Shown here: positions 8,737 to 43,084 of the stretch, in pieces
How the letters are laid out: the number at the start of each line of letters is the position of its first letter
Numbering within the stretch: the first letter of the stretch is position 1
Assembly (NCBI GenBank): GCA_017626035.1
Contig: JAGAJR010000003.1
Span: forward strand, 1 to 43,280
Length of the DNA: 43,280 bases
Reading direction: 5' to 3'
Source: Alphaproteobacteria bacterium
Lineage (GTDB): Bacteria > Pseudomonadota > Alphaproteobacteria > RF32 > CAG-239
Program-made: the position numbers and the translations under genes
The notes under the pieces: generated by a model
Told to the model about the DNA's origin: nothing
The model's database searches: none
Seen by the model: only the letters and a program-made list of their open reading frames with translations

Positions 8737-11439
8737 TTAGCAAGCCTTGCAGCAGCAGGCAGAGTGAGAAGCGTTATCAACGTCTTTCTTCTCGCCTTTT
8801 TGCTTAACGGCAGCTTGAGCAGCAGCCAAACGTGCAACAGGAACACGATATGGAGAGCAAGATACATAATCCAAACCTACTTTGTTGAAGAATTCAATAG
8901 ATTTCGGATCACCACCGTGTTCACCACAAACGCCAAGGTGCAAGTCAGGGTTTGTCGCACGGCCTTCAACGGCTGCACGGCGAACCAATTTGCCAACGCC
9001 TTCAACATCGATAGAAGCGAACGGATCAGCAACATAAACGCCTTTAGCTCTGTATTCGTCAAGAATAGCACCTGTATCGTCACGGCTCATACCCAGAGTT
9101 GTCTGAGTCAGGTCGTTTGTACCGAAACCGAAGAAGCTTGCAGATTCTGCAATTTCTTCAGCCATCAGGGCTGCACGAGGCAACTCAATCATGGTACCGA
9201 CGAGGTAGTTAATCTTTTTGCCTTTTTCAGCAAATACTTTTTCAGCAGTTGCATCAATAACGGCTTTAACAATATCCAGTTCTTTCTTAGAACCTGTCAA
9301 AGGAACTTCGATTTCCGGAGTAACTTTAACACCGGCTTCCTGACATTCGATAGCAGCTTCGAGAATAGCACGAGCCTGCATTTCGGCAATTTCAGGATAT
9401 GTAACGGCCAAACGGCAGCCACGGTGTCCAAGCATCGGGTTAGCTTCATGCAAAGCGTTTGCACGATTCTTAACTTGTTCCAAAGTCATACCCATTTTGT
9501 TAGCCAATTCCTGCATTTCGGCATCTGTGTGCGGCAGGAATTCGTGCAAAGGAGGGTCCAACAAACGAACAGTAACCGGCAGACCGTTCATGATTGTGAA
9601 CAAGTCTTTGAAGTCCTGTTTCTGGTAAGGGAGCAGACGAGCCAAAGCTTTTCTGCGGCCTTCTTCGTTTTCGGACAAAATCATGGCACGCATGTCAGGA
9701 ATACGTTCAGCGTCAAAGAACATGTGTTCTGTACGAGCCAAACCGATACCTTCGGCACCGAAATCACGGGCTGTCTGAGCATCTTTAGGAGTTTCGGCAT
9801 TGGCACGAACGCTCATTGTGCGGATTTCATCAACCCAGCCCATCAATTTACCGAAGTTACCTGTACTGGTGTCAGCTTTAACGGTAGGAACTTCGCCTTC
9901 AATAATCTGGCCTTTTGCACCGTCAAGAGATACCCAGTCGCCTTCTTTAATAACAACCCCGGCTTTTGTGCTCATTGTTTTCTTAGCGTAGTCGATAGTA
10001 ATATCGTTAGAACCGGATACGCAAGGAGTACCCATACCGCGGGCAACAACGGCTGCGTGAGAAGTCATACCGCCGCGGGCTGTAATAACGCCTTGGGAAG
10101 CATGCATACCGCCGATATCTTCCGGAGAAGTTTCGTTACGGATAAGGATAACTTTTTCGCCTCTGTTAGCCCAAGCTTCAGCATCTTCTGCATTAAATAC
10201 GGCACGGCCGACGGCAGCACCCGGAGAAGCAGGAAGACCTGTAGCGATAACGTTTTTCTTGGCTTTAGGATCCAACATCGGGTGAAGCAATTGGTCTAAC
10301 TGGTCAGCACCGACACGCATAATAGCTTCTTCTTTGTTCAGCAGACCTTCTTCAACCATTTCAACAGCCATACGAACGGCAGCGGCAGCTGTCCGTTTAC
10401 CGTTACGGCATTGCAACATCCACAATTTACCGTGTTCGATTGTGAATTCCATATCCTGCATATCTTTGTAGTGAGCTTCGAGGTTGTTACGAACGTCAAC
10501 CAATTCTTTGTAGAGGTGAGGCCATTTTTCTTCAAGAGATGTACCGTCGCCTTTGGAAGCCATAGGCTGCGGAGTACGAATACCGGCAACAACGTCTTCA
10601 CCTTGTGCATTAACCAAATATTCGCCGTAGTAAACATTTTCACCTGTAGCAGGGTCGCGGGAGAAGCATACACCTGTTGCACAGTCATCGCCGGCATTAC
10701 CGAATACCATGGTCTGAACGTTAACGGCTGTACCCCAGTCGCCCGGAATGTTGTTCAATTTACGGTAAGTGATAGCACGGGCAGCCATCCAGGAACCGAA
10801 TACGGCACCGATACCGGCCCACAATTGTTCCCAAGGATCCTGAGGAACAACTTTGCCGAGTTTTTTACCGATTTCTTTATATTCGTTAACCAGTTCTTTC
10901 AGGTCTTCAGCGGTCAAATCCGTGTCAGATTTGTAACCTTTGGCTTTTTTCATAGCTTCCAAAGCACCTTCATATTCATCCAAATCGGCACCGAGAACAA
11001 CGTCGGAGAACATTTGCAGGAAACGACGGTAAGAGTCGTAAGCAAAACGTTCGGAACCGGAAGCTTTAGCCAAAGCTTTAACTGTTTCGTCGTTCAAACC
11101 GAGGTTCAAAACGGTATCCATCATACCCGGCATGGAAACGCGGGCACCGGAACGAACGGAGAAAAGCAATGGGTTGTTGGCATCGGCGAATTTCTTGCCC
11201 ATAATACCTTCAACATGAGCAACAGCAGCCTTAACCTGATCTTTCAGGTCAGCAGGATAAGTCTTGTTGTTATTGTAATAATATGTACAAACTTCAGTTG
11301 TAACCGTAAATCCCGGAGGAACAGGCAGACCGACCACGTTCATTTCTGCGAGGTTGGCACCTTTACCGCCGAGCAGATTACGCATGCTGGCATCGCCTTC
11401 GGCTTTGCCGTTACCAAATGTATAAACCCATTTACTCAT
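8737..11439 (-). CDS. ppdK: pyruvate, phosphate dikinase
   Basis: PPDK interconverts pyruvate, ATP and phosphate with PEP, AMP and pyrophosphate, working in glycolysis or gluconeogenesis of many fermenters. The 900-residue protein has the N-terminal nucleotide-binding domain (NLLGGKGANLAEM near the start), the swivelling phosphohistidine domain GGMTSHAAVVARGMGTPC (His461, with the regulatory Thr at 459), and a PEP/pyruvate barrel ending in LGVCGEHGGDP (catalytic Cys838). The ATG at 11439 has AAGGAGC upstream. The extreme C-terminus, SACCCKAC, is an unusual Cys cluster beyond the conserved fold. A terminator-containing RNA leader precedes the gene. Confidence 0.98.
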   Translation of the reverse strand: MSKWVYTFGNGKAEGDASMRNLLGGKGANLAEMNVVGLPVPPGFTVTTEVCTYYYNNNKTYPADLKDQVKAAVAHVEGIMGKKFADANNPLLFSVRSGARVSMPGMMDTVLNLGLNDETVKALAKASGSERFAYDSYRRFLQMFSDVVLGADLDEYEGALEAMKKAKGYKSDTDLTAEDLKELVNEYKEIGKKLGKVVPQDPWEQLWAGIGAVFGSWMAARAITYRKLNNIPGDWGTAVNVQTMVFGNAGDDCATGVCFSRDPATGENVYYGEYLVNAQGEDVVAGIRTPQPMASKGDGTSLEEKWPHLYKELVDVRNNLEAHYKDMQDMEFTIEHGKLWMLQCRNGKRTAAAAVRMAVEMVEEGLLNKEEAIMRVGADQLDQLLHPMLDPKAKKNVIATGLPASPGAAVGRAVFNAEDAEAWANRGEKVILIRNETSPEDIGGMHASQGVITARGGMTSHAAVVARGMGTPCVSGSNDITIDYAKKTMSTKAGVVIKEGDWVSLDGAKGQIIEGEVPTVKADTSTGNFGKLMGWVDEIRTMSVRANAETPKDAQTARDFGAEGIGLARTEHMFFDAERIPDMRAMILSENEEGRRKALARLLPYQKQDFKDLFTIMNGLPVTVRLLDPPLHEFLPHTDAEMQELANKMGMTLEQVKNRANALHEANPMLGHRGCRLAVTYPEIAEMQARAILEAAIECQEAGVKVTPEIEVPLTGSKKELDIVKAVIDATAEKVFAEKGKKINYLVGTMIELPRAALMAEEIAESASFFGFGTNDLTQTTLGMSRDDTGAILDEYRAKGVYVADPFASIDVEGVGKLVRRAAVEGRATNPDLHLGVCGEHGGDPKSIEFFNKVGLDYVSCSPYRVPVARLAAAQAAVKQKGEKKDVDNASHSACCCKAC

Positions 11440-11709: not shown

Positions 11710-12036
11710 CACTTTTCTGACGCCGTTTTGTCCATAATTTCATGAAACCCGCAGAATAAAAAGCTTACGAAAAATCAAAAAAATTACCATAGATTCCGCC
11801 TTTTTTTATTGTTTGTTAACCTAAAATATGCTATTATCATAATTGACAAAATAAGCTTTATGTCACTTTACTAACATGTTTTATTATTTGAAAGATAGAG
11901 TTTTCGTATATCGAGGAATTAAAAAAAGTTTTCCTGATTGAGTTACGTCGATTCAATATCTTTTGAATATCATCATATTTTGCGGTATCCCCGCACTAAA
12001 CTTCATTCATAAACGATAAAAAAAATAAAAAAGCAT

Positions 12037-13638
12037 ATGAAAAGTATTAACAATCTGAAGGCTTACGCAGCTCTTCTCCTCACTATGATGATCTCCCTCG
12101 TGTTCACTTCTTGCTCTGACTATGATGGTCCGGAGACTAAGATATCAAACACCGAGACTGTTTTCTACCGCGTAATCAACGTTCACCCTGAAGAGGATGG
12201 ACGCTTGCACTACGATCTCGAGAACAAGTCCACCGGAGAAACCACCCCTCATTCCGTAGATATGTATCCCAGCTTGATGCTGCAGGATATCGACACTATC
12301 CGCGGTTTTGCTAAAGGGGGAATTGAATTGACCTCATCCAAGAAATTAGGTTGGATCAATGCCGACGAAAGCTACATTTTCGATCTGGCAAAGACCAAAA
12401 TCTACGCATCCGCAAGCATCCTGTTATCTCACACTGTAACACACTACAGTGAAGACTATCAGATTTCTGCCAAAGATGCACAAATTAACCTCATTTCTGT
12501 GGATACAATATCTGTTTCTGCAGATTCTCTGACTTGGAAATACCGAGCTAACGCCACTCTCACCGTAGAGAACGTGACCGTAAAAACCACTTCTGTAGAA
12601 TTCGTAGAAATCGTTGATCCACAAGGAGAACCGACCCCGGATCCGACTCCCGATCCAGAACCTCAGCCCGAAGACGAAGTTTCTTATATTCTTGACAACA
12701 TCCGCCCCATGGCAGATGGTTTCTTGTACTACGACTTTGCAGAAAACCACACGGTTAATGTAGAGAAGAACACAAAAAACACATTCAAGTTCAACATGGA
12801 ACCTTCGTTAAAAGGTAAGGCAGCTGGAACCAAAACCGTAAAGGCTCTTGGTGCAAAGGTTAACGGTGCTGCAACTCAGGCTTATACCGGAGCAAAGACT
12901 TACACATGGTCTTGCAATGGTGTTGAGAACATCTCTTTCGACGCTTCTGTAATCTTGTCTAAGGTTGTTAACCACGACAAAGAATACACAGTATCGGCTA
13001 AGAATGCCTCATTAAAGCTTGTAAGCTTTACCGAAACCAGTGGCAACGAGAAGACCCGCACCTATACAGCAACTTGCGAGTTGTATGTTGAGGGTGTGAA
13101 AGTCGCTTCGGCAACCACAACCCGCACTCAGGAACTGGAGGCAACTCCAGAGCCGGAACCCGACCCCGATCCCGAATACAGCACAACCTACACCTTTGTT
13201 TGCATGAGCCGTATCCTTAGTGCCGACGAGAAATCGTTCCACACCGGATACATTTTCAAGGCAGAAGGCAAAAAGAACGGTATCCAGGTTGTAATACCGA
13301 CATTGAATGTTGATTATTTCGCTCCTGCTTCTGAGATCAAAAACAGCCTTTCTAAGGTGAACTCAGCAGTTTGGAACGGCAAGAACTTCATTCCTTGCGA
13401 GGTTGTTGTAGATAACGCTACAAAGATGTTCATTTATGATGGCAAAAACACCACCGGTGACAAGTCAATCGTAATGAGCTTCAATGAGGCCGTTATCAAA
13501 GGGATTAAAAATTACTCATCCGATATTAACATTTCGGCAACCCCGATTGTTAACGGTGCAGAGGCTCGCATAGAGAATGGTGTGATGAACATCTACCTCA
13601 ACGGCAAGCTCTTCCACACCTATAAATTAGGCGAGTAA
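12037..13638 (+). CDS. Bacteroidota-like surface lipoprotein with two tandem domains and Pro/Asp linkers
   Basis: The 533-residue precursor begins with a lipoprotein signal peptide ending FTSC (Cys26), followed by SDYDGPE, an acidic stretch like the Bacteroidota lipoprotein export signal. Two similar domains follow (about 40-190 and 216-365). Both have a 'ILDN/VINV ... DG.L.YD ... SA..A...LVS' pattern and are joined by PTPDPTPDPEPQPEDE and EPEPDPDPE linkers. A C-terminal domain (about 382-533) is shared with the larger lipoprotein at 15623-19036. The ATG follows an A-rich leader with no Shine-Dalgarno, unlike neighbouring core genes. Function is unknown; horizontal acquisition from Bacteroidota is inferred. 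Confidence 0.75.
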   Translation: MKSINNLKAYAALLLTMMISLVFTSCSDYDGPETKISNTETVFYRVINVHPEEDGRLHYDLENKSTGETTPHSVDMYPSLMLQDIDTIRGFAKGGIELTSSKKLGWINADESYIFDLAKTKIYASASILLSHTVTHYSEDYQISAKDAQINLISVDTISVSADSLTWKYRANATLTVENVTVKTTSVEFVEIVDPQGEPTPDPTPDPEPQPEDEVSYILDNIRPMADGFLYYDFAENHTVNVEKNTKNTFKFNMEPSLKGKAAGTKTVKALGAKVNGAATQAYTGAKTYTWSCNGVENISFDASVILSKVVNHDKEYTVSAKNASLKLVSFTETSGNEKTRTYTATCELYVEGVKVASATTTRTQELEATPEPEPDPDPEYSTTYTFVCMSRILSADEKSFHTGYIFKAEGKKNGIQVVIPTLNVDYFAPASEIKNSLSKVNSAVWNGKNFIPCEVVVDNATKMFIYDGKNTTGDKSIVMSFNEAVIKGIKNYSSDINISATPIVNGAEARIENGVMNIYLNGKLFHTYKLGE

Positions 13639-13650
13639 TGGGGAAAATTC

Positions 13651-13692
13651 AATCATCATGGAGGGAAGCTCACAGAGCCCTCTATGATGATT
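13651..13692 (+). terminator. 15-bp hairpin after the first lipoprotein gene
   Basis: AATCATCATGGAGGG (13651-13665) pairs with CCCTCTATGATGATT (13678-13692), all bases paired with one G-T wobble and a 12-nt loop. It starts 12 bp after the stop codon. There is no T-tract, so it may act as a transcript-end stabiliser or a non-canonical terminator. Confidence 0.6.
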
Positions 13693-13746
13693 TCAAAAGA
13701 AATAAAGACTGTGGCAAAATCAAAAAACTTTTAAAAATTTCGAAAA

Positions 13747-14436
13747 ATGAAAACTGTAAAAAATATTTTCGCTCTCGTGATCGTTCTTCTTAGTGTAGCA
13801 ACCTCAGCATTCGCACAGGATGCTCCCAAAGCTGTCGCCCTCGACAGCATTCCGGAAGGATTCATCCTCACTCCGGAAGGCTATCTTAACTTCCGTGATA
13901 AGTCCCACCCGGGCTATCACAAAGGACAAATTAAAGATGGCCGCTATCAAGAAGAGAAACAGTATAACTACACAGGCTTCTATATGAGTGTAAAAGGTGG
14001 TTACTCACCCAAGCACGGAGCCCTTGGTGGTTTAACACTTGGCTACGAGCACAATTACGGACGCGTTGAACTGGAAGGAAGCTTTGAACAGCTTACTTTT
14101 GACGATATCGATGTTGCCGCTCCCGGTGCCGCTGTGAATGTTATCTTCGACCTTAACAAGTCCAGAAGATTCAACATCTACGCTGGTCCAAGAGTAGGTT
14201 ATATCGGCTTCAAGAGCGAGAAAAACGTGGAAGGTTATGACAAACCTTTCAACGTAAAATCAAACTCTTTCAAGTTTGGTGCACTTGCCGGATTTGATGT
14301 ACGAGTTTCTGATGGCGTTGCTGTTGGAGCCCGTTGCACTTATGACAACTTCCAAGTTGTTAAGTTCGGAGAAACCGTACGCGAAAATAAAATTAATGCA
14401 GAGGTGGTTCTGACGTTCCGTCTCGGCAGAAAATAA
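13747..14436 (+). CDS. outer-membrane beta-barrel protein, Bacteroidota-like
   Basis: The 229-residue protein has a signal peptide (cleavage after about residue 23, SAFA|Q) and then a stretch DSIPEGFILTPEGYLNFRDK. An eight-stranded-type barrel pattern follows (alternating strands such as FYMSVKGGY, LGGLTLGYEHNYG, FNIYAGPRVGYIGF, FGALAGFDVRV), and it ends in a strand VVLTFRLGRK. The start lies in an A-rich leader with no Shine-Dalgarno, as for the flanking lipoproteins. It follows the first lipoprotein by 108 bp and may assemble or present it at the surface (inference). It ends at a clear terminator. Confidence 0.7.
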   Translation: MKTVKNIFALVIVLLSVATSAFAQDAPKAVALDSIPEGFILTPEGYLNFRDKSHPGYHKGQIKDGRYQEEKQYNYTGFYMSVKGGYSPKHGALGGLTLGYEHNYGRVELEGSFEQLTFDDIDVAAPGAAVNVIFDLNKSRRFNIYAGPRVGYIGFKSEKNVEGYDKPFNVKSNSFKFGALAGFDVRVSDGVAVGARCTYDNFQVVKFGETVRENKINAEVVLTFRLGRK

Positions 14437-14486
14437 AAAGCAAGGAGAGATGCTCAGGTTCTCTCAGAGTATTATTAACCATTTAG

Positions 14487-14517
14487 AAACGGCTCCGCAA
14501 GGGGCCGTTTTCCTTTT
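14487..14517 (+). terminator. intrinsic terminator
   Basis: AAACGGCTCC (14487-14496) pairs with GGGGCCGTTT (14501-14510) with one G-T pair and a GCAA tetraloop, followed by a T-rich run. It closes the first lipoprotein/beta-barrel unit. Confidence 0.85.
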
Positions 14518-14632
14518 TAAACAACTTTCCCTTTTTCAATAGCTTTCCTCATTATTTCCCATCGCCTTCCTCATTAACGGGATATTAAACTATTCGTATT
14601 ACAACAAAAATAATAAAAATAAGAATTAACAC

Positions 14633-14660
14633 TTGCATTTTAAAAACATTAGTGTATAAA
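14633..14660 (+). promoter_or_regulatory. sigma-70-type promoter of the porin-like gene
   Basis: TTGCAT (14633-14638) and TATAAA (14655-14660) are 16 bp apart. The ATG at 14706 follows, with TTGGAGC as Shine-Dalgarno, giving a leader of roughly 40 nt. Confidence 0.65.
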
Positions 14661-14705
14661 TTTAGACAAAATTTAACAAATCTTATCTAACTTTGGAGCA
14701 AACTT

Positions 14706-15326
14706 ATGAATAAAAAACTTTTGATGGCTGCCTCCGCTTTTGTTATCGCAGCTTTTTCAACCCCTGCATTTGCCGGTTGCGACGGTATCTATCTGGCTGG
14801 CCGCGGCGGTATCATCAACCACAATGTCGGCGATAAAGAAAGCGACCTTTCGGACGAAAAACTTGAAATTGATGACAACGCCTTAATGCTGTCTGCCGCT
14901 TTGGGTTATCGTTGGGGTTACTTCCGTATTGAGGCTGAATATGTTTGGCGTGATGAAACGGATGATACAAAACGTTCAGCTATAATTAATGGAGCTTCCA
15001 TTAACTCTCAGTTTGAATCCTCTTCTTACATGGCTAACATCTATTGGGATTTGTCTCCTTACACATGGTTTACCCCTTATGTTTCAGCCGGTATCGGTAT
15101 GACCGAATTGGAATACAGCTTTAACAACCGCTATAACGGTGCTATCACCAACAAAGACTCCTTTGAAGAAACCAACTTCACATGGTCTGTCGGCGGCGGT
15201 TTGTCTGCTCAGGTTACCAACCGTTTCAACGTTGACTTGGGTTACCGTTACTATGATATGGGCGATATTGGCGAAGCTTCCATTCACGCTCACGAAGTTT
15301 ACGGCGGTCTGCGTTACGTTTTCTAA
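14706..15326 (+). CDS. porin-like outer-membrane beta-barrel protein
   Basis: The 206-residue precursor has a typical proteobacterial signal peptide (1-23, TPAFA|G) and an OmpA/OmpW-size barrel. The strands are amphipathic (IYLAGRGGII, LMLSAALGYRWGYFRIEAEYVW, TPYVSAGIGM, FTWSVGGGLSAQV, FNVDLGYRYYDMG) and the last strand VYGGLRYVF ends in Phe, the BAM recognition signal. Unlike its neighbours it has a good Shine-Dalgarno and a recognisable promoter and terminator, so it looks native. It sits between two Bacteroidota-like units. Substrate is unknown. Confidence 0.8.
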   Translation: MNKKLLMAASAFVIAAFSTPAFAGCDGIYLAGRGGIINHNVGDKESDLSDEKLEIDDNALMLSAALGYRWGYFRIEAEYVWRDETDDTKRSAIINGASINSQFESSSYMANIYWDLSPYTWFTPYVSAGIGMTELEYSFNNRYNGAITNKDSFEETNFTWSVGGGLSAQVTNRFNVDLGYRYYDMGDIGEASIHAHEVYGGLRYVF

Positions 15327-15351
15327 AAAAACAAACGTTTTTACCATTACA

Positions 15352-15382
15352 AGGCTCTTTCCTGCGAAAGAGCCTTTTTTTG
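15352..15382 (+). terminator. intrinsic terminator of the porin-like gene
   Basis: AGGCTCTTTC (15352-15361) pairs perfectly with GAAAGAGCCT (15366-15375), loop CTGC, followed by seven or more Ts. Confidence 0.92.
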
Positions 15383-15622
15383 ACGACCAAACCCCTGATT
15401 TTACTTATCTATCTCTCCAAAAGCCCCGAAATTTTCATCAAGTTTCTCTTGTCTAATTCTTCCGAATGTGTTATTCTAAAATTCGACAAAAAGTAATTAT
15501 GTCATACCTATAAATTTAGTAGTTATTATGGAAGGATATTCAGTCTAAAACATCTGATTGTGAATTCCATATCAATATATATCCCCTTTCTTATAGTAAA
15601 AAATAATAAAAACAATAAAGAC

Positions 15623-18600
15623 ATGAAAAGAGAATTGATTAAGAACATCTACGCGATGTTCATGTTCGCAATCGCGATGGTAGTAGTTTCAGTGACAATG
15701 GTGAGTTGCTCAGAATATGACGGCCCCGAAGTCCCTGGTAAACAAGACCCCGAACCTCCGCAGCAGGTAACCCTCGAGAAAGTAGAAAAAATCGCATGCA
15801 ATGCGGTATCTTCTACTTGGGATGGAGAGAACGCTGTCCTCATGACCAGAGGTATCAGCGACAACTACGCTCCCAAATACCGTACCAACGCATGGTGGGC
15901 AGTAACGAACACAGAGTATCAGGCCAAGCTTATCTACACCGACGGCACAAGTCAGGAAGAAAGCAAATACTTCAATGTAACCAACAACGCCAATGTTTTC
16001 CTTGGTAAAGGAACTCAGTTTGTTAAGAGCATTGAGACGATTATGGCCAAACCCGAGGAAAGCATAACCGACCTCGGATCTCTGGGTGAACTTACTGTTT
16101 ACTCGTTCGAAGGATACTCCTTCGGAATTGTTACCAGCTCTCAGAAATCTCCCGAGGTTCTCACTTTCGACAAGATAAGCAAAAACGATCTCTGCACTCC
16201 GCAGATGACCAACACTTATCTGAAAGCCGAGAAACACTTCGTCAAAGACTCTCTGGAATACAAGCTCTACGACGTAGAGTTCCACTTCCAGTCTATGATT
16301 GAAGCCGGCGACAACAACCAACGTGAAGTTGTCATCACCAAGAGATTCGCTGAAAGCAAGAATGGAACAACTCCCGGCGGAAACGACCCCGAACACGTTT
16401 GCTACGTCCTGAGAAACAGCGGTTTTGATTTCGTTACCGAAGAAACATCCACATCCTACGCGACTGTGTATGAAATCTTCAGCGACGGTTCCGAAAAGAA
16501 GGTGGAAGACATTAATACTATCGTTTACAACTGGCACAAAGCCAGCGAAGACTATGAGTTAATCGTATCATCCTTTGCTTATACAGAAGTTGAGGATATA
16601 GTTTATCGCATGGTTGCCGACGGCACAAGCCGTGTAAGCGATGAAAATGCCAACATCTTCCTCACCGGATATCAGACCACTGCCCTGACCGGCACTCAGA
16701 CCTTCACATACCGCTTTGACGGACATTTCGAAATTCCCGTGTATACCGATCCCGACGGAAAGGCTCACACAATGGAATATCGCGAATACAATCCTTCAAA
16801 CAACGGCTTGAAAGAAGGCCAGAAAACAAGCGACGGCGTTTTTGAAACTCTTCCGGTAACCTCTCCCGTAACAATGGAGTTCAACCAGAAGAATTATGAA
16901 TTGGAAAGCACCGTTACTTTGAAAGTCCCGACAGGAAGCATTCAGGATCGCCTCAGCGGTTTGAAAGCTATCAACATTCGTGTTGAAGGTGAATATATCA
17001 AATACGACCTCGTTCGTTATTTCACCCAGTCTCCGAGCACAACCACTCCGATGGAAGTGCTTCACATGGCAGAACAACACGCTGAAGAGCTCAAGACCAC
17101 AGAGAAACGTTCTTACACTGCGACATCGACTCAGACTGACACCATCAGTTCAACCCCGTTTACCGACGGACGTCATACCGGAGATTACGTTGAGTTCAAC
17201 AAGACGTATCACTATGCCGATTTTGACGTTGTCGTAAACAACAAAGTAAGACAAAACATCGTCTATACCGAAGGCGGCTTCACGGCTTACATCTATGCCG
17301 GAGAAACCAGCTGCAACCAAAACGGTTACACCTTCGGAACAGTAGATAACGGCGACGACAAGAAGCACGTTTATACGGACGAAATTTCTTATGGTTTGAA
17401 CATTGGTGCCTTTGAGACTGCTAACAGTGTTCAGTTGGTTCGCTACACCGAACTGATCCCCGAGGAGAAGCATCTTGTTGATGTGAAGGAAGTTAAAGTA
17501 GAAGGCAACAGACACTTCATGTATATCACTTTCAGTGATGGCTCTTTTGATCGCGACACAGTAACCGTTGAAAAACCGGTTGCTCTGATTGGAAAGACCT
17601 TGGCTGAACTGAACAGAAGTGATCTTGATTTTGGCAAAGGCCAGGTTGACCACAGCCAGAAGCCCGCTGAAAAAACTTCTTCCATGAACGGACGCGTTGT
17701 TACAACCCCGTACGAACAGACTTATCCGGTAAGCTATAATAACCATAATCATAGCATAACCGGTCAGTATGAAACGTATTACTACGCCTACACCTACAAA
17801 GGCGTAACCAAGGGATGTGACTTGACTTCTCCGACTCTCAAGGTGGAAAACACCAACTTCGAGCTGGGTACTGCAAAAGAGGAAACCGTTGGCAACAAAG
17901 TATACAAGGTAACTCCCGTTACCTTCAACTACAAAGGAACCTACGGCTCTCAGAACCCGACCTGCAAAGTGACCACATCTGTTCGTCAGTACCTTCGCGA
18001 TATCGTAACCAAGAAGGTGTTGACAAGCGTTGAGGAAATCGGAACCAAGGGAGACAATATTCACTACATCAAGATTACTTTCGATGACAACTCCTTCATT
18101 AAAGACACTGTTACAGTCAACAAACCCGTAACTTTGGTCGGAGGAACCGTTGAAGATATGTATCGTGATGACGTGAATTTCGGTAAGGGTAATGTCAATC
18201 ACTCAAGCACTCCTACAGCTGGAACTAAGACAACCAACGGACGCGTAACGGCCACAGCTTATACTCATAACTATCCGGTTGCTTACAATGGCCACGACCA
18301 CAAAGTAACAGGAACGTATAATAAGTATATATACACCTACACCCACGAGGGCGTAAGCAAAAGCTGCAACCTTACAACTCCGACTCTGAAAGTTGAAAAC
18401 ACATCTGTTGTTCCCGGAACAGGCAACGAGCAGACCATTGGCCAGAAGATTTATGAAGTAATCCCCGTTGTATTCAATTACACCGGCACTTACGGATCTC
18501 AGACCAAAACAGCCAAGGTAACCGGTAATGTATACAAGTTCGTCAAGAACGTTGAGGATCCCAAACCTCAGTACAAGACCGAATACTCTTTTGTTGCTGC

Positions 18601-19036
18601 CAGCCGTGTCCTGTCAAAGGATCAGAAGACCTTCCACAACTGCTACCTGTTCAAGGCCAGTGGTGAGGAAAACGGATTGCAGGTTGTAATTCCTGACCTC
18701 GGCGTGGATTGGTTCTGCGACGCTTCAACAATCGGAGGCAATATGGACGCTTGTGCCAGTGCAATCTGGAACGGAACCTATTTCATCCCGTGTGAAGTAT
18801 TGGTTGATAACAGTGCTAAAATGTTTGCTTATGACGGTAAAAACACCTCCGGTGACAAATACCTGCTCATGAGCTTCAACGAAGCAGTTATCAAAGGTAT
18901 CAAGAACTACAGTTCTGATATCAATACTTCAGCTACACCGATAATGAACGGTATCAGCTCAGCGGATGAAAACGGCGTGATTACTGTTTACCTGAACAAG
19001 GGCAGTATCTTCACTTACCATTCCGGAAAGAACTAA
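15623..19036 (+). CDS. large Bacteroidota-like surface lipoprotein with tandem repeats
   Basis: The ATG at 15623 is chosen over an in-frame ATG at 15560 because it places a lipoprotein signal peptide at the N-terminus, ending MVSC (Cys29), then SEYDGPE. The precursor is 1137 residues. Two similar segments of about 175 residues lie at about 618-793 and 798-975; shared motifs are FSDGSF/FDDNSF, DTVTV.KPV, DFGKG.V.HS, NGRV and FNY.GTYGSQ. A C-terminal domain (about 983-1137) closely matches the end of the lipoprotein at 12037-13638. The A-rich leader lacks a Shine-Dalgarno, and Pro codon CCC is frequent. Function is unknown; adhesin or surface-binding protein is a guess. Confidence 0.75.
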   Translation: MKRELIKNIYAMFMFAIAMVVVSVTMVSCSEYDGPEVPGKQDPEPPQQVTLEKVEKIACNAVSSTWDGENAVLMTRGISDNYAPKYRTNAWWAVTNTEYQAKLIYTDGTSQEESKYFNVTNNANVFLGKGTQFVKSIETIMAKPEESITDLGSLGELTVYSFEGYSFGIVTSSQKSPEVLTFDKISKNDLCTPQMTNTYLKAEKHFVKDSLEYKLYDVEFHFQSMIEAGDNNQREVVITKRFAESKNGTTPGGNDPEHVCYVLRNSGFDFVTEETSTSYATVYEIFSDGSEKKVEDINTIVYNWHKASEDYELIVSSFAYTEVEDIVYRMVADGTSRVSDENANIFLTGYQTTALTGTQTFTYRFDGHFEIPVYTDPDGKAHTMEYREYNPSNNGLKEGQKTSDGVFETLPVTSPVTMEFNQKNYELESTVTLKVPTGSIQDRLSGLKAINIRVEGEYIKYDLVRYFTQSPSTTTPMEVLHMAEQHAEELKTTEKRSYTATSTQTDTISSTPFTDGRHTGDYVEFNKTYHYADFDVVVNNKVRQNIVYTEGGFTAYIYAGETSCNQNGYTFGTVDNGDDKKHVYTDEISYGLNIGAFETANSVQLVRYTELIPEEKHLVDVKEVKVEGNRHFMYITFSDGSFDRDTVTVEKPVALIGKTLAELNRSDLDFGKGQVDHSQKPAEKTSSMNGRVVTTPYEQTYPVSYNNHNHSITGQYETYYYAYTYKGVTKGCDLTSPTLKVENTNFELGTAKEETVGNKVYKVTPVTFNYKGTYGSQNPTCKVTTSVRQYLRDIVTKKVLTSVEEIGTKGDNIHYIKITFDDNSFIKDTVTVNKPVTLVGGTVEDMYRDDVNFGKGNVNHSSTPTAGTKTTNGRVTATAYTHNYPVAYNGHDHKVTGTYNKYIYTYTHEGVSKSCNLTTPTLKVENTSVVPGTGNEQTIGQKIYEVIPVVFNYTGTYGSQTKTAKVTGNVYKFVKNVEDPKPQYKTEYSFVAASRVLSKDQKTFHNCYLFKASGEENGLQVVIPDLGVDWFCDASTIGGNMDACASAIWNGTYFIPCEVLVDNSAKMFAYDGKNTSGDKYLLMSFNEAVIKGIKNYSSDINTSATPIMNGISSADENGVITVYLNKGSIFTYHSGKN
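17475..18550 (+). repeat. two tandem repeat units within the large lipoprotein gene
   Basis: Units of about 530 bp (roughly 17475-18003 and 18016-18550) encode matching segments: DTVTVEKPV/DTVTVNKPV, DLDFGKGQVDHS/DVNFGKGNVNHS, TSPTLKVENT/TTPTLKVENT and FNYKGTYGSQ/FNYTGTYGSQ. The similarity is clear in protein but diverged in DNA, so the duplication is not recent. Confidence 0.7.
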
Positions 19037-19065
19037 GCCAAGTTCCAACTGAATATTCAAAAAGA

Positions 19066-19095
19066 GGGCGGTGCTTCGTGCACCACCCTTTTTTT
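19066..19095. terminator. terminator between the large lipoprotein gene and fliP
   Basis: GGGCGGTGC (19066-19074) pairs with GCACCACCC (19080-19088) with one mismatch, flanked by A-rich sequence and a run of eight Ts. It serves the plus-strand gene and could also serve fliP on the minus strand. Confidence 0.75.
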
Positions 19096-19161: not shown

Positions 19162-19908
19162 TTAATGGAAGGAGTTTACCAACGACCCAGCCAATACATA
19201 CCAACCGTCTACCAAAACAAAGAAAATCACTTTAAATGGAAGTGCGAGAACTGTTGGCGGCAACATCATCATACCCATGGACATTAATACGGAAGCTATT
19301 ACCATATCTATAATCAAAAACGGCACAAAGATTAAAAAACCGATTTCAAAAGCCCGCCGCAGTTCACTAATCATAAACGCCGGAACCGCTACTTTCAAAG
19401 ATGTTTCGGCAACGCTTTCCGCCGACTTCTCTTTTGCCAAATCCGTAAACAGAAGCAAATCTTTTTCCCGGGTATTGCGAACCATAAACTCTTTCAGCGG
19501 GGCAATCGCTTTTTCCAACCCTTCTTCAATCTCCACCTTTTCTTCATACATCGGCTTAACTCCTTCTTCCCAGGATTTTTCCAATACCGGAGACATAATA
19601 AAAAAGGTCAGAAACAAAGCCAAAGAGAGCAAAACCATATTCGGAGGCGTTGCCTGAGTCGCCAAGGCACTCCGGGTAATAGAAAAAACAACGATAATCC
19701 GGGTAAAAGAAGTCATCATAACCAAAATACTCGGAGCAATCGACAACACCGTTATCATCAAAATAACATTAAAGATTCGGGCGGTTACCGAACCGCTCGG
19801 AGATGCCTCGCCCACATTCAGGGTCAGACTCTGAGCCATTGCCGGGTCTGCAAAAAGCAGACACCCGAAAACAACCAAACCGAACAGAACATAAAACCTT
19901 TTAAACAT
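19162..19908 (-). CDS. fliP: flagellar export apparatus protein FliP
   Basis: FliP is a core inner-membrane component of the FliPQR export gate. The 248-residue protein carries a cleavable signal peptide (ending AMAQ, about residue 26), then four membrane segments and the family signature MVIASVLMSMGMMMLPP. It directly follows fliO with no intergenic space. No other flagellar gene is in the window, so the rest of the flagellar set must lie elsewhere. Confidence 0.96.
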   Translation of the reverse strand: MFKRFYVLFGLVVFGCLLFADPAMAQSLTLNVGEASPSGSVTARIFNVILMITVLSIAPSILVMMTSFTRIIVVFSITRSALATQATPPNMVLLSLALFLTFFIMSPVLEKSWEEGVKPMYEEKVEIEEGLEKAIAPLKEFMVRNTREKDLLLFTDLAKEKSAESVAETSLKVAVPAFMISELRRAFEIGFLIFVPFLIIDMVIASVLMSMGMMMLPPTVLALPFKVIFFVLVDGWYVLAGSLVNSFH

Positions 19909-37835: not shown

Positions 37836-38651
37836 GTGACTAGCCTACATATTTTACTGTTATCAATTTTGCAGGGATTAACAGAATTTTTACCTGTTAG
37901 TTCATCGGGACACCTTATTTTATTTTCAAAATTTACAACATTTCCGGATCAAGGATTGGATTTGGACGTTGCCGTGCATGTCGGTTCAATCATGGCCGTT
38001 ATGATTTATTTTTCCGAATATATTCACGAAATGATTGTCGGGGTCTTAAAAACATATTGTATTCCAAGCTTTAAAAATAAAGGCAGCAAACTCTTTTGGC
38101 TGATTGTCCTAGGAACAATCCCGGCAATAATTGCCGGATTGGCACTCAAAACCTACGGTATGGAATGGCTGAGAAATCCGAAAATTATCGGTTGGACAAT
38201 GCTTGGTTTCGGAATTGTCTTATATATAGCCGATAAAGTCGGAATGACAATCCGTAAAGTAGACCATTTAACTGCCCTGGATGCCATATTAATCGGCTTA
38301 GCTCAGTGTCTGGCTCTGATACCGGGAACCAGCCGTTCGGGAATAACCATAACCATGGGACGATTCTTGGGAATGGAACGCCGTGAAGCCGCAAAATTTG
38401 CCATGCTGCTGTCAATCCCGACCATTGCCGCTGCCGGACTTCTGGTAAGTTATGAACTTTATCAACAGGACAACTTAGGCCTTATCATAAATGCCATTGA
38501 CGGTGTAACCTATTCATTTATCGCATCTATTTTGGCAATTTACATCATTATGTGGTGGTTAAAAAAATCAACATTCCTTCCTTTTGTAATTTATCGATTA
38601 TTTTTAGGAAGTTTCTTGATTTTAAATTCATATGGATATATAAAGTTCTAG
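37836..38651 (+). CDS. uppP: undecaprenyl-diphosphatase UppP
   Basis: UppP recycles undecaprenyl pyrophosphate to the lipid carrier for peptidoglycan and other glycans. The 271-residue integral membrane protein has LPVSSSGHLIL near the start and IPGTSRSGITITMGRFLGM in the middle, the two conserved phosphatase regions. The start is GTG 37836, 4 bp after the response-regulator stop codon. Its end is 11 bp before tRNA-Leu, and the serine-recombinase frame overlaps its 3' end in antisense. Confidence 0.96.
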   Translation: MTSLHILLLSILQGLTEFLPVSSSGHLILFSKFTTFPDQGLDLDVAVHVGSIMAVMIYFSEYIHEMIVGVLKTYCIPSFKNKGSKLFWLIVLGTIPAIIAGLALKTYGMEWLRNPKIIGWTMLGFGIVLYIADKVGMTIRKVDHLTALDAILIGLAQCLALIPGTSRSGITITMGRFLGMERREAAKFAMLLSIPTIAAAGLLVSYELYQQDNLGLIINAIDGVTYSFIASILAIYIIMWWLKKSTFLPFVIYRLFLGSFLILNSYGYIKF

Positions 38652-40209
38652 AAAAGAGATTCGCCCTGGTGGTGGAATTGGTAGACACGTATGCTTCAGG
38701 TGCATATGACCCCAGGTCGTGGAAGTTCGAGTCTTCTCCAGGGCACCAATCTTTACAAGCTCCTATTTTTGATAGGAGCTTGAAGTTTTTTCTCATTGAT
38801 ATTTCAGGATTTTTTCCATCCATAAAAAAGTTCGCAAAAACGATATTTAAAATACGCCGTTTTTCTTCAATTTGCGAACTTTTGAAAATTGCAAAAGAAT
38901 TTTGACTAAAATTCAATACCTTATCAATAGCCCTTTCCACCGAGGTATCAGGCATCTGTAATTTCTCAATTTTGGCTTGGAGTTCAATTTTAGCTGTTTC
39001 ATATTCGGAATTCTTGCTGCGATACACCTCGGCAGGAACTGTTCCTGCAATCAGCAAATCCAAAAGTTTCTTCTGATTTTCCTCAACATCAGCGAGTTCA
39101 TTGCGATTCTTTTCTAATTGATAATAAGTATTACCGTGAGTTGCTTCATACTGCTTTTTCAAGCGAATAGCCAAAGCAGATTTCAAATCATCATCAAAAT
39201 GGATTGATGAAAGGGATTTCTCAACTTCTTTCAACAAAACCTTTTCGCTGACATTGTTGCAATGTTCGCAGTTTTTCAGGTCAGTATGTCGCAAATAGAC
39301 ATACTTATCCTTCTTGGTGTATGGCGAAAGCAAACAACCACAATGTTTGCAACGAACCAATCCCCGAAAAATGTAGGGTTCTTTGGTATGTTTTGAAGTT
39401 CGTTTGAATTTTCCCGTCCTTATTTCAGTGCACTTGTCAAACAATTCCTTTGAAATGAGCTTCTCATAACGGTGAGGATAATAATCTTTGTTGTAATACA
39501 TTACCCCATAATAAAATGGGTTTTTCAGAATATTCGCAAACTGGGATTTCGTGATAGGGTTATGAGCAGTAGTTTTATTCCGCAACCCCCAACCTTTGGA
39601 TTTCTTGACTAACTCATCCATAGAAAACAGCCCTGTGGAATATTCTTCAAATAATTTCTTAATCAAAGGACCTCGGACAGGGTCAATAATAATAGTCTTA
39701 TTACCCCGTTCATCTCCGGCATTTAAATAGCCAATCGGTGCAGGAGCAGGTAAAAGTCCCTCATTAAGCATTTTTTCTTCGGACCGTTTAACATTATCAG
39801 AAAGAGCTCCAACATAAGCTTTTGCCATCAACACACACATATCCCACATCACTTTTTGGGTATTCTTGGTCCTATCGTTAACGACCATTGCTTCTCGCAA
39901 AAAGTGCAGTTCTATTTTTCCTTGTTCAATCAAGTCATTTAAAACGGGTGTTTCCTTGAAAGAGCGTTGCAACCTATCAACAGCATCTACAACAACGGCT
40001 ATTTTTTCCCGTTGTTTTTTAACAAAGGTCAGCATTTCATTAAACTGTGGTCGCTTTCCTTTGGTTGAACTTTCGGTAATGTTATATTCTTGAATAATAT
40101 CAAGATTGTGTCTTTCGCAATACTTACGCAGCCTGTCTAACTGGGCATCCAGAGAAAACCCGTCTTCCTGCATCTCTGTTGAAACTCTTGCTAAAATAAC
40201 TGCTTTCAT
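38548..40209 (-). CDS. large serine recombinase (integrase), frame running through tRNA-Leu
   Basis: The start at 40209 (MKAVILARVS) has TAGGAG 7 bp upstream; the frame could begin earlier without a Shine-Dalgarno. The 553-residue product has a resolvase catalytic domain (ARVSTEMQ, Ser10), a recombinase domain (NAGDERGNKTIIIDPVRGPL...NPFYYGVMYY), a zinc ribbon (RCKHCGCLLSPYT...NCEHCNN) and a coiled coil. About the last 70 residues come from antisense tRNA-Leu and uppP sequence (DWCPGEDSNFHDLGSYAPEA), so the native C-terminus depends on integration. Large serine integrases use tRNA genes less often than tyrosine integrases. Confidence 0.88.
   Translation of the reverse strand: MKAVILARVSTEMQEDGFSLDAQLDRLRKYCERHNLDIIQEYNITESSTKGKRPQFNEMLTFVKKQREKIAVVVDAVDRLQRSFKETPVLNDLIEQGKIELHFLREAMVVNDRTKNTQKVMWDMCVLMAKAYVGALSDNVKRSEEKMLNEGLLPAPAPIGYLNAGDERGNKTIIIDPVRGPLIKKLFEEYSTGLFSMDELVKKSKGWGLRNKTTAHNPITKSQFANILKNPFYYGVMYYNKDYYPHRYEKLISKELFDKCTEIRTGKFKRTSKHTKEPYIFRGLVRCKHCGCLLSPYTKKDKYVYLRHTDLKNCEHCNNVSEKVLLKEVEKSLSSIHFDDDLKSALAIRLKKQYEATHGNTYYQLEKNRNELADVEENQKKLLDLLIAGTVPAEVYRSKNSEYETAKIELQAKIEKLQMPDTSVERAIDKVLNFSQNSFAIFKSSQIEEKRRILNIVFANFFMDGKNPEISMRKNFKLLSKIGACKDWCPGEDSNFHDLGSYAPEAYVSTNSTTRANLFSRTLYIHMNLKSRNFLKIIDKLQKEGMLIFLTTT
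38663..38748 (+). tRNA. tRNA-Leu (anticodon CAG)
   Basis: Acceptor GCCCTGG (38663-38669) pairs with CCAGGGC (38738-38744), and ACCA is encoded (38745-38748). The anticodon stem TATGC/GCATA encloses the loop TTCAGGT with CAG at 38697-38699. The long variable arm (type II tRNA) and the T-arm GGAAG-TTCGAGT-CTTCT confirm Leu. Its 3' end is the apparent insertion site of the adjacent element. Confidence 0.96.
38756..38792 (+). terminator. terminator downstream of tRNA-Leu
   Basis: CAAGCTCCTA (38756-38765) pairs perfectly with TAGGAGCTTG (38773-38782), followed by a T-rich run. It ends the uppP/tRNA transcript and lies inside the recombinase frame, which is transcribed the other way. Confidence 0.8.
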
Positions 40210-40219
40210 ATCCATACTC

Positions 40220-40342
40220 CTAACAAACCTGTTTCTGCATTTCAATTTCTAACAACAGAAACAACAACTGGAAAATATCTTCACTAGATTCAACTGCTTT
40301 TTTTGTTTCTTTATTTTGATTTTGGTAATTTGTGCAAATCAT
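40220..40342 (-). CDS. 40-codon ORF immediately upstream of the serine recombinase
   Basis: ATG 40342 follows AGGGGATAAC, a strong Shine-Dalgarno. The product is a 40-residue peptide beginning MICTNYQNQNKETKKAVESS and ending in a Leu-rich helix and MQKQVC. Its TAG stop overlaps the recombinase Shine-Dalgarno, so the two are translationally linked. Candidates are a recombination directionality factor or a leader peptide; there is no recognised family. Confidence 0.5.
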   Translation of the reverse strand: MICTNYQNQNKETKKAVESSEDIFQLLFLLLEIEMQKQVC

Positions 40343-42490: not shown

Positions 42491-43084
42491 TTAATTAGCA
42501 ATACATTCATTTATATATCTGTGCAGAGTTTGCCACGTGCATCCCATTAGACGAGCGATTTCAGCCTTACTGATGCCTTTTCCCAATAATTCAACAATTT
42601 TATTGTGTTTCTTTTTGAGTTTTTTGTAAGTAAAGCCGTATGGTCTGCCAAGGTGTTTTCCCTCATTTTTCAATCGTTTTAAGCATTCTGTGGTTCGTTG
42701 AGAGATGAGTTGTCTTTCAATTTCAGCTGCAAGAGAGAATGCAAACGCTAAAACTTTACTCTGTATATCCGCCCCGAGATGATAATTCTCTTTTATGGTA
42801 ATGATTTCACATTCTTTTTCTAAACATTGTTGAAGGATGCTCATCACTTCAAGCATATTTCTGCCTAATCTTGATATTTCCGTAGTGATTATTAGGTCTT
42901 TCTCTCCAATTTTATCTAATAATTTGCCTAATTTTCTATCTTTTAATGGCTTCCTTGAAGATATTGTTTCTTCTATATATTCATTGATTTTTATATTGTG
43001 TTTAGCCGCATAACATTCTAATTCAAATCTCTGATTGGCACAATTTTGTTGGTCAGAACTGACCCTGATGTAAGCAAAATTCAT
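42491..43084 (-). CDS. small serine recombinase (Mpi/Hin/resolvase type)
   Basis: The 197-residue protein has a catalytic domain beginning NFAYIRVSSDQQN (Ser9), ISRLGRNMLEVMSIL and an E-helix SLAAEIERQLISQRTTE. A C-terminal Hin-like helix-turn-helix (GISKAEIARLMGCTWQTLHRYI) follows. Sizes and motifs fit DNA invertases such as Mpi of Bacteroides or Tn3-type resolvases. An 11-bp-arm palindrome lies 9 bp upstream of its ATG and is a plausible crossover or operator site. It could resolve element dimers or invert a segment. Confidence 0.88.
   Translation of the reverse strand: MNFAYIRVSSDQQNCANQRFELECYAAKHNIKINEYIEETISSRKPLKDRKLGKLLDKIGEKDLIITTEISRLGRNMLEVMSILQQCLEKECEIITIKENYHLGADIQSKVLAFAFSLAAEIERQLISQRTTECLKRLKNEGKHLGRPYGFTYKKLKKKHNKIVELLGKGISKAEIARLMGCTWQTLHRYINECIAN

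Follow-up and report, generated by a model that had tools for sequence, protein, structure and literature searches.

The DNA analysed here, a stretch of 43,280 nucleotides (the window), raises the question of how an alphaproteobacterial chromosome came to carry, between ppdK and fliP, lipoprotein and outer-membrane genes that look as though they belonged to the Bacteroidota. The window is one complete contig of a 1.64-Mb assembly (G000; 27 contigs, estimated to be 100% complete and 0.34% contaminated). The initial annotation proposed an "interdomain" transfer, a term that should read interphylum, since the Bacteroidota and the Alphaproteobacteria are both Bacteria. The features concerned are as follows.

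8737..11439, minus strand: ppdK, native anchor, an ORF whose product we take from its sequence to be pyruvate,phosphate dikinase; most full-length relatives are 85-95% identical.
12007..12036, plus strand: A-rich initiation region of lipoA, without Shine-Dalgarno (SD) sequence, recognised from the sequence and the class-wide pattern.
12037..13638, plus strand: lipoA, a 533-amino acid lipoprotein with SPII signal, CSDYDGPE, two related beta domains and a C-terminal domain in common with lipoB.
13651..13692, plus strand: strong hairpin in the spacer that separates lipoA from the barrel gene, with no T tract after it, recognised by folding energy and recurrence in relatives.
13747..14436, plus strand: the partner gene of lipoA, for a small outer-membrane beta-barrel of 229 amino acids with a signal peptide ending AFA-Q.
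14486..14511, plus strand: terminator-like hairpin 3' of the barrel gene.
14706..15326, plus strand: native porin-like outer-membrane protein gene with SD, a neighbour outside the lipoprotein family (OMP_b-brl, 6e-18).
15351..15376, plus strand: terminator-like hairpin 3' of the porin gene.
15593..15622, plus strand: A-rich initiation region of lipoB, without SD.
15623..19036, plus strand: lipoB, a 1137-amino acid lipoprotein with CSEYDGPE, an all-beta N region of ~560 amino acids, repeats and a C-terminal domain in common with lipoA.
19065..19089, no strand assigned: terminator-like hairpin between lipoB and fliP.
19162..19908, minus strand: fliP, native anchor on the other side; best matches are 68-86% identical.

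The three foreign-looking genes (12037-13638, 13747-14436 and 15623-19036) are open at these coordinates, each with an ATG that leads at once into a signal peptide. The product of the second is a signal-peptide-bearing outer-membrane beta-barrel and no lipoprotein. The gene between them at 14706-15326 had been considered native, and its SD sequence together with porins of 50-60% identity elsewhere agree with this. The sole Rfam match in the window was a tRNA-Leu (38663-38748). The contig end (38548-43280) is low in GC (28-33%). Besides an ORF resembling ankyrin repeats and what may be a replication protein, it holds two recombinase-like ORFs (38548-40245 and 42491-43084); the first of these two overlaps the tRNA-Leu in antisense orientation, suggesting that a mobile element has inserted at this tRNA.

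Searches for relatives gave matches to lipoA in 10 of 126 family genomes, and to a lipoB-like profile in 28 of 152, spread over 7 of the 16 genera; since profile homologues are found in just this fraction, losses or gains must have been many. Inspection of the gaps on the ppdK side added members that the profile had missed and showed genera without the locus. At the level of the order, presumably the gut lineage RF32 of GTDB, the profile added one genome and no further match, and among 398 genomes of the phylum Pseudomonadota it matched its own genome alone (none of 397 others). An alignment scan of 84,980 species confirmed 10 loci, all in uncultured Proteobacteria/Alphaproteobacteria; its prefilter consisted of two degenerate motifs, through which the Bacteroidota were covered and by which distant relatives can be missed. 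Best matches confined to Alphaproteobacteria had been set in advance as the outcome speaking against transfer, and every confirmed relative is indeed proteobacterial within the reach of that scan. lipoB was absent from the phage and plasmid collections searched, as were two other lipoproteins of the family from the plasmid collection, and two scans of viral contigs gave no confirmed relative. Our literature search found no paper on the lipoprotein/barrel locus.

At E 1e-3 all 41 lipoproteins collected fall into a single BLAST cluster, and 27 of the 28 paired barrels form another, in an unmasked clustering where repeats may help some links. Thirty-one of the lipoproteins were collected by sequence similarity alone and the rest by position; the leader was no formal criterion for the positional picks, yet the leaders had been seen beforehand by the selector.

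Chromosomal position was mapped by fliP and ppdK searches across the family together with gene maps. In genera g1, g7, g9, g10, g12 and g16, large lipoprotein genes point away from ppdK and are commonly followed by a small barrel gene; in g10 and g16 the far side of the block is occupied by the native porin and fliP. Most homologue sets adjoin ppdK, and several sit between ppdK and fliP with the native porin alongside; the gene order is lipoA-barrel-porin-lipoB in the window and lipo-barrel-lipo-porin in G044. No locus lay beside ppdK in the inspected representatives of g3, g4, g6, g11 and g14, nor in several g12 genomes. The interphylum import, interleaved with a native gene, that was first proposed is not supported, given that other genera of this order have homologous sets next to ppdK as well. 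A recent import was rejected: homologues are resident in at least seven genera of the order, at ~25% identity and often at the same site. Members away from ppdK (L111, L112 and L113) were located beside an efflux operon in G020 and G038 and near ribosomal protein genes in G032. Presence of fliP goes by genus (9/16 genera, 76/152 family genomes), and its genus-wise absence suggests repeated loss of flagella. G012 has two ppdK-like genes 69-71% identical to that of the window, one of them matched over just 510 residues.

The genes of this region differ greatly in their rate of divergence. Between G000 and other genera, identity is mostly 85-95% for ppdK, 68-86% for fliP and 50-60% for the porin; it is 23-28% for lipoB and 22-29% for the barrel. 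The lipoproteins nevertheless retain a conserved domain order and scattered invariant residues. In their tree each genus is a clade (support 99-100), with inner between-genus branches of 0.4-2.4, for which the tool warns that long branches meet; the inner branches of the ppdK tree are below 0.1, too flat for a comparison of co-inheritance. Where a genome has two lipoproteins, these have their C-terminal part in common (61% identical in G000, 35-40% in g16), and such same-genome domains resemble each other more than their counterparts in other genera, as might result from conversion or from binding to one and the same partner.

What makes the block look foreign begins with its translation starts. 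The three leaders ('cgataaaaaaaataaaaaagcatATG', 'caaaaaacttttaaaaatttcgaaaaATG' and 'aaaaaataataaaaacaataaagacATG', respectively) are A-rich, as had been noted, and a 4-mer search found in them no SD-like site (AGGA, GGAG or GAGG within -20 to -4), versus 51% with SD among host genes of at least 200 amino acids. Across the family such a site occurs in 0/41 lipoprotein genes and in 127/248 host genes (Fisher p 6e-12, the related sequences not being independent), its absence being seen in each of seven genera, and in 0/28 barrel genes. Adenine is present in 98% of the 41 lipoprotein genes at -13, 93% at -12, and 80% at both -6 and -3, and G is at 0% at all 13 positions from -21 to -9. Scored with a start-region matrix trained without the genus in question, most family members lie above 0, host genes average -24.7, and one of 571 other genes, drawn from the sampled genome and the relatives' loci, exceeds 10 bits. 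The lipoB start scores 10.6 with the matrix from other genomes. The lowest scores are those of two g12 members (-6.3 and -4.3), and lipoA itself reaches -1.3; the initiation class is therefore not uniform.

The spacer between lipoA and the barrel gene (108 nt) folds with an MFE of -24.2 (z -3.7). Hairpins were found in 22 of 25 lipoprotein/barrel spacers (z -2.0 to -6.5), without sequence conservation, and the three g16 spacers that lack one have an A-rich stretch of 44-45 nt instead.

The lipoprotein N-termini are the second peculiarity. A lipobox is present in 41/41 members, and both lipoproteins of the window carry C-S-[DE]-Y-D-G-P-E from the lipobox Cys onward, as first reported. Acidic residues at +2 to +8 after the Cys average 2.49, versus 0.90 in 10 candidate host lipoproteins (p 1e-5), a set that includes false candidates such as the porin and fliP. 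The Bacteroidetes lipoprotein export signal consists of polar then acidic residues (QKDDE, SDDDD, SDDFE; PMC5080379), and here too such residues follow the lipidated Cys (CSPDDEF, CSKDEE, CSQDDE). The family sequence is more variable than that signal, many members having a single acidic residue or a broken series of them (CSGSEIYG, CSEYDGPE); the motif is compositional and degenerate, and its function in Alphaproteobacteria is putative.

Beyond the N-terminus the proteins resemble little that has been named. Pfam and NCBIfam contained no convincing family above the curated cut-off for lipoA, lipoB, the A1 members (Pfam) or ten divergent relatives, and a PDB sequence search returned nothing for the lipoproteins and chance-level matches for the barrel. 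The latter is like the small barrels of OMP_b-brl and Opacity (PF13505, PF02462) in size, signal peptide and strand-rich barrel; it differs in matching them below the cut-off (OMP_b-brl, E 9e-5) or at it (Opacity), and in being paired with a lipoprotein gene. AlphaFold predicted an all-beta N region for lipoB, reliable only over residues ~48-612 (block means mostly 65-90 for 90-610), and performed poorly on the remainder and on lipoA. Foldseek gave one match below 1e-3, a protocadherin with a TM of ~0.1, and VIA gave no Z above 5.1, with weak Ig/cadherin-like beta-sandwich matches. The tandem all-beta domains are reminiscent of surface adhesin rods with Ig/cadherin-like repeats (Z ~5 to cadherins, alpha-2-macroglobulin and SraP), although the lipoproteins have neither a significant sequence match nor a confident structural match to these.

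Codon usage is the third peculiarity, judged against a host background of ~370 kb in stretches plus the window (~23% of the genome). CCC makes up 38% of the Pro codons of the block versus 7% in this sample, confirming the frequent CCC first remarked upon; lipoA is the most codon-atypical gene of at least 200 amino acids in the sample, the barrel gene and lipoB falling at the 3rd and 6th percentiles. The bias is foreign-looking only in part: the block differs from the host's ppdK in CCC, CTC, GTA, AAG and CGC, but matches it in the C-ending two-fold codons TTC, CAC, AAC and TAC. The shift is alike across six genera (r 0.63-0.90; 0.38-0.76 with ppdK), the CCC excess being strong in g1, present in G022 and absent in several others. 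In G000 it correlates about equally with the shift of ribosomal protein genes (r 0.48) and with that of Bacteroides plasmid genes (0.52), which leaves the codon evidence ambiguous. A model built on a Bacteroides plasmid, itself a poor reference, gives the block's codons a lower likelihood than the host model does. High-expression bias of the host was rejected as the whole explanation; it fits partly and does not explain CCC and GTA. As the initial annotation held, the block stands apart from its host in its start regions, its codon usage and the N-termini of its lipoproteins; its import into native surroundings is unsupported.

Could the locus nonetheless have come from the Bacteroidota long ago? 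The ancestor of the order would have taken up a lipoprotein/barrel locus that stayed by ppdK and diverged fast, while its Bacteroidota-like start regions and acidic lipoprotein N-termini were retained because they served it well. Baez et al. (PMC6847099) report that initiation in Flavobacterium johnsoniae is favoured by A at -3, -6, -12 and -13, and in E. coli, too, by A at -3 and -6; the initiation regions of F. johnsoniae and Prevotella (PMC6847099, PMC3155529) likewise lack SD and are enriched in A at -14 to -11, -6 and -3. These positions, the missing SD and the polar-then-acidic residues after the Cys all match the Bacteroidota at once, and the codon shift is in part like that of Bacteroides plasmid genes. 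Against such an origin, the species scan, within the reach of its two motifs, confirmed no Bacteroidota relative, and Bacteroidota-type promoters (TTTG / TAnnTTTG) do not accompany the leaders: TANNTTTG occurs in 2 of 41 upstream regions (8.1 expected), and once with a spaced TTG (0.9 expected). The leaders are, moreover, more extreme than those of 86 Bacteroides plasmid/phage genes, with higher A and lower G; in the latter the A peak at -14 to -11 is present but weaker (57-67%), and the median matrix score (-11.0) lies between host and family. The leaders are Bacteroidota-like in kind but stronger, and they can be explained by selection within the host, through which A-rich leaders can also arise, without any transfer. 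We regard the ancient transfer as possible but unlikely; it concerns origin alone and is compatible with a locus now resident in the order.

Among the sampled genes, and unlike in the Bacteroidota, the A-rich start type is limited to one gene family of an SD-using alphaproteobacterium. Perhaps, and we put this forward tentatively, this organism keeps a second, SD-independent initiation class that, among those genes, serves a single surface lipoprotein family and that selection has maintained from genus to genus at the same A positions as in the Bacteroidota. The leaders, which read like AAT-AAT-AAC-AAT-AAA, might instead be regulatory sites. Hfq binds runs of A-R-N triplets such as these with its distal face, and it was found in all 49 family genomes searched. 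Small-RNA control of this type, in place of SD-free ribosome loading, would on its own leave the A peaks at -13/-12 and -6/-3 and the complete loss of SD unexplained, and a protein universal in the genomes searched does not discriminate by its presence; we consider the Hfq reading unlikely.

The strong divergence between genera, the patchy presence and the variable copy number and order could also be accounted for if the ppdK site were a hotspot that had repeatedly received different lipoprotein loci from the Bacteroidota. This appears improbable, for the proteins are homologous, with the domain order and invariant residues described above, the genera are clades in the lipoprotein tree, the codon shift is consistent among genera, no integrase was noticed at most sites and no donor was found. 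That a Bacteroidota fragment was joined to an alphaproteobacterial contig in assembly or binning is very unlikely in spite of the fragmented assembly and the foreign look of the block, because the arrangement recurs in independent assemblies of other genera (G044, G051, G083, G034, G022 and G039), several joins would have been required to place two separate pieces on either side of a native gene, contamination is low and the genome has no SusD domain (Bacteroides control positive).

From its distribution, location, start-region statistics and divergence, the block is probably a locus resident in a single order of host-associated Alphaproteobacteria, encoding rapidly diverging surface lipoproteins together with a small beta-barrel as their partner, and subject to selection for initiation without SD. 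Transcription would proceed from a host-type promoter, and ribosomes would load without SD pairing, aided by an unstructured A tract near -13 (a bS1 contact) and by A at -6 and -3. The lipoprotein would be lipidated at its Cys, moved outward with the help of the acidic N-terminus, and may project as a rod built from beta-sandwich domains. Its outer-membrane partner, either as anchor or as exporter, would be the barrel, whose coding region lies 3' of the intergenic hairpin. The fast divergence suggests an ecological role where the cell meets hosts, phages or competitors.

The locus adds an unnamed, fast-evolving surface lipoprotein/barrel system to what is known of these poorly studied gut Alphaproteobacteria, and illustrates how codons and leaders of foreign appearance can lead one to infer a transfer wrongly. 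It also offers a natural test, within one genome and one gene family, of SD-using ribosomes starting on G-free, A-rich leaders, and bears on whether the A-rich initiation of the Bacteroidota is an ancient shared option or an acquired one. A second initiation class, if it exists, could uncouple the translation or the regulation of these mRNAs from that of the remaining proteome.
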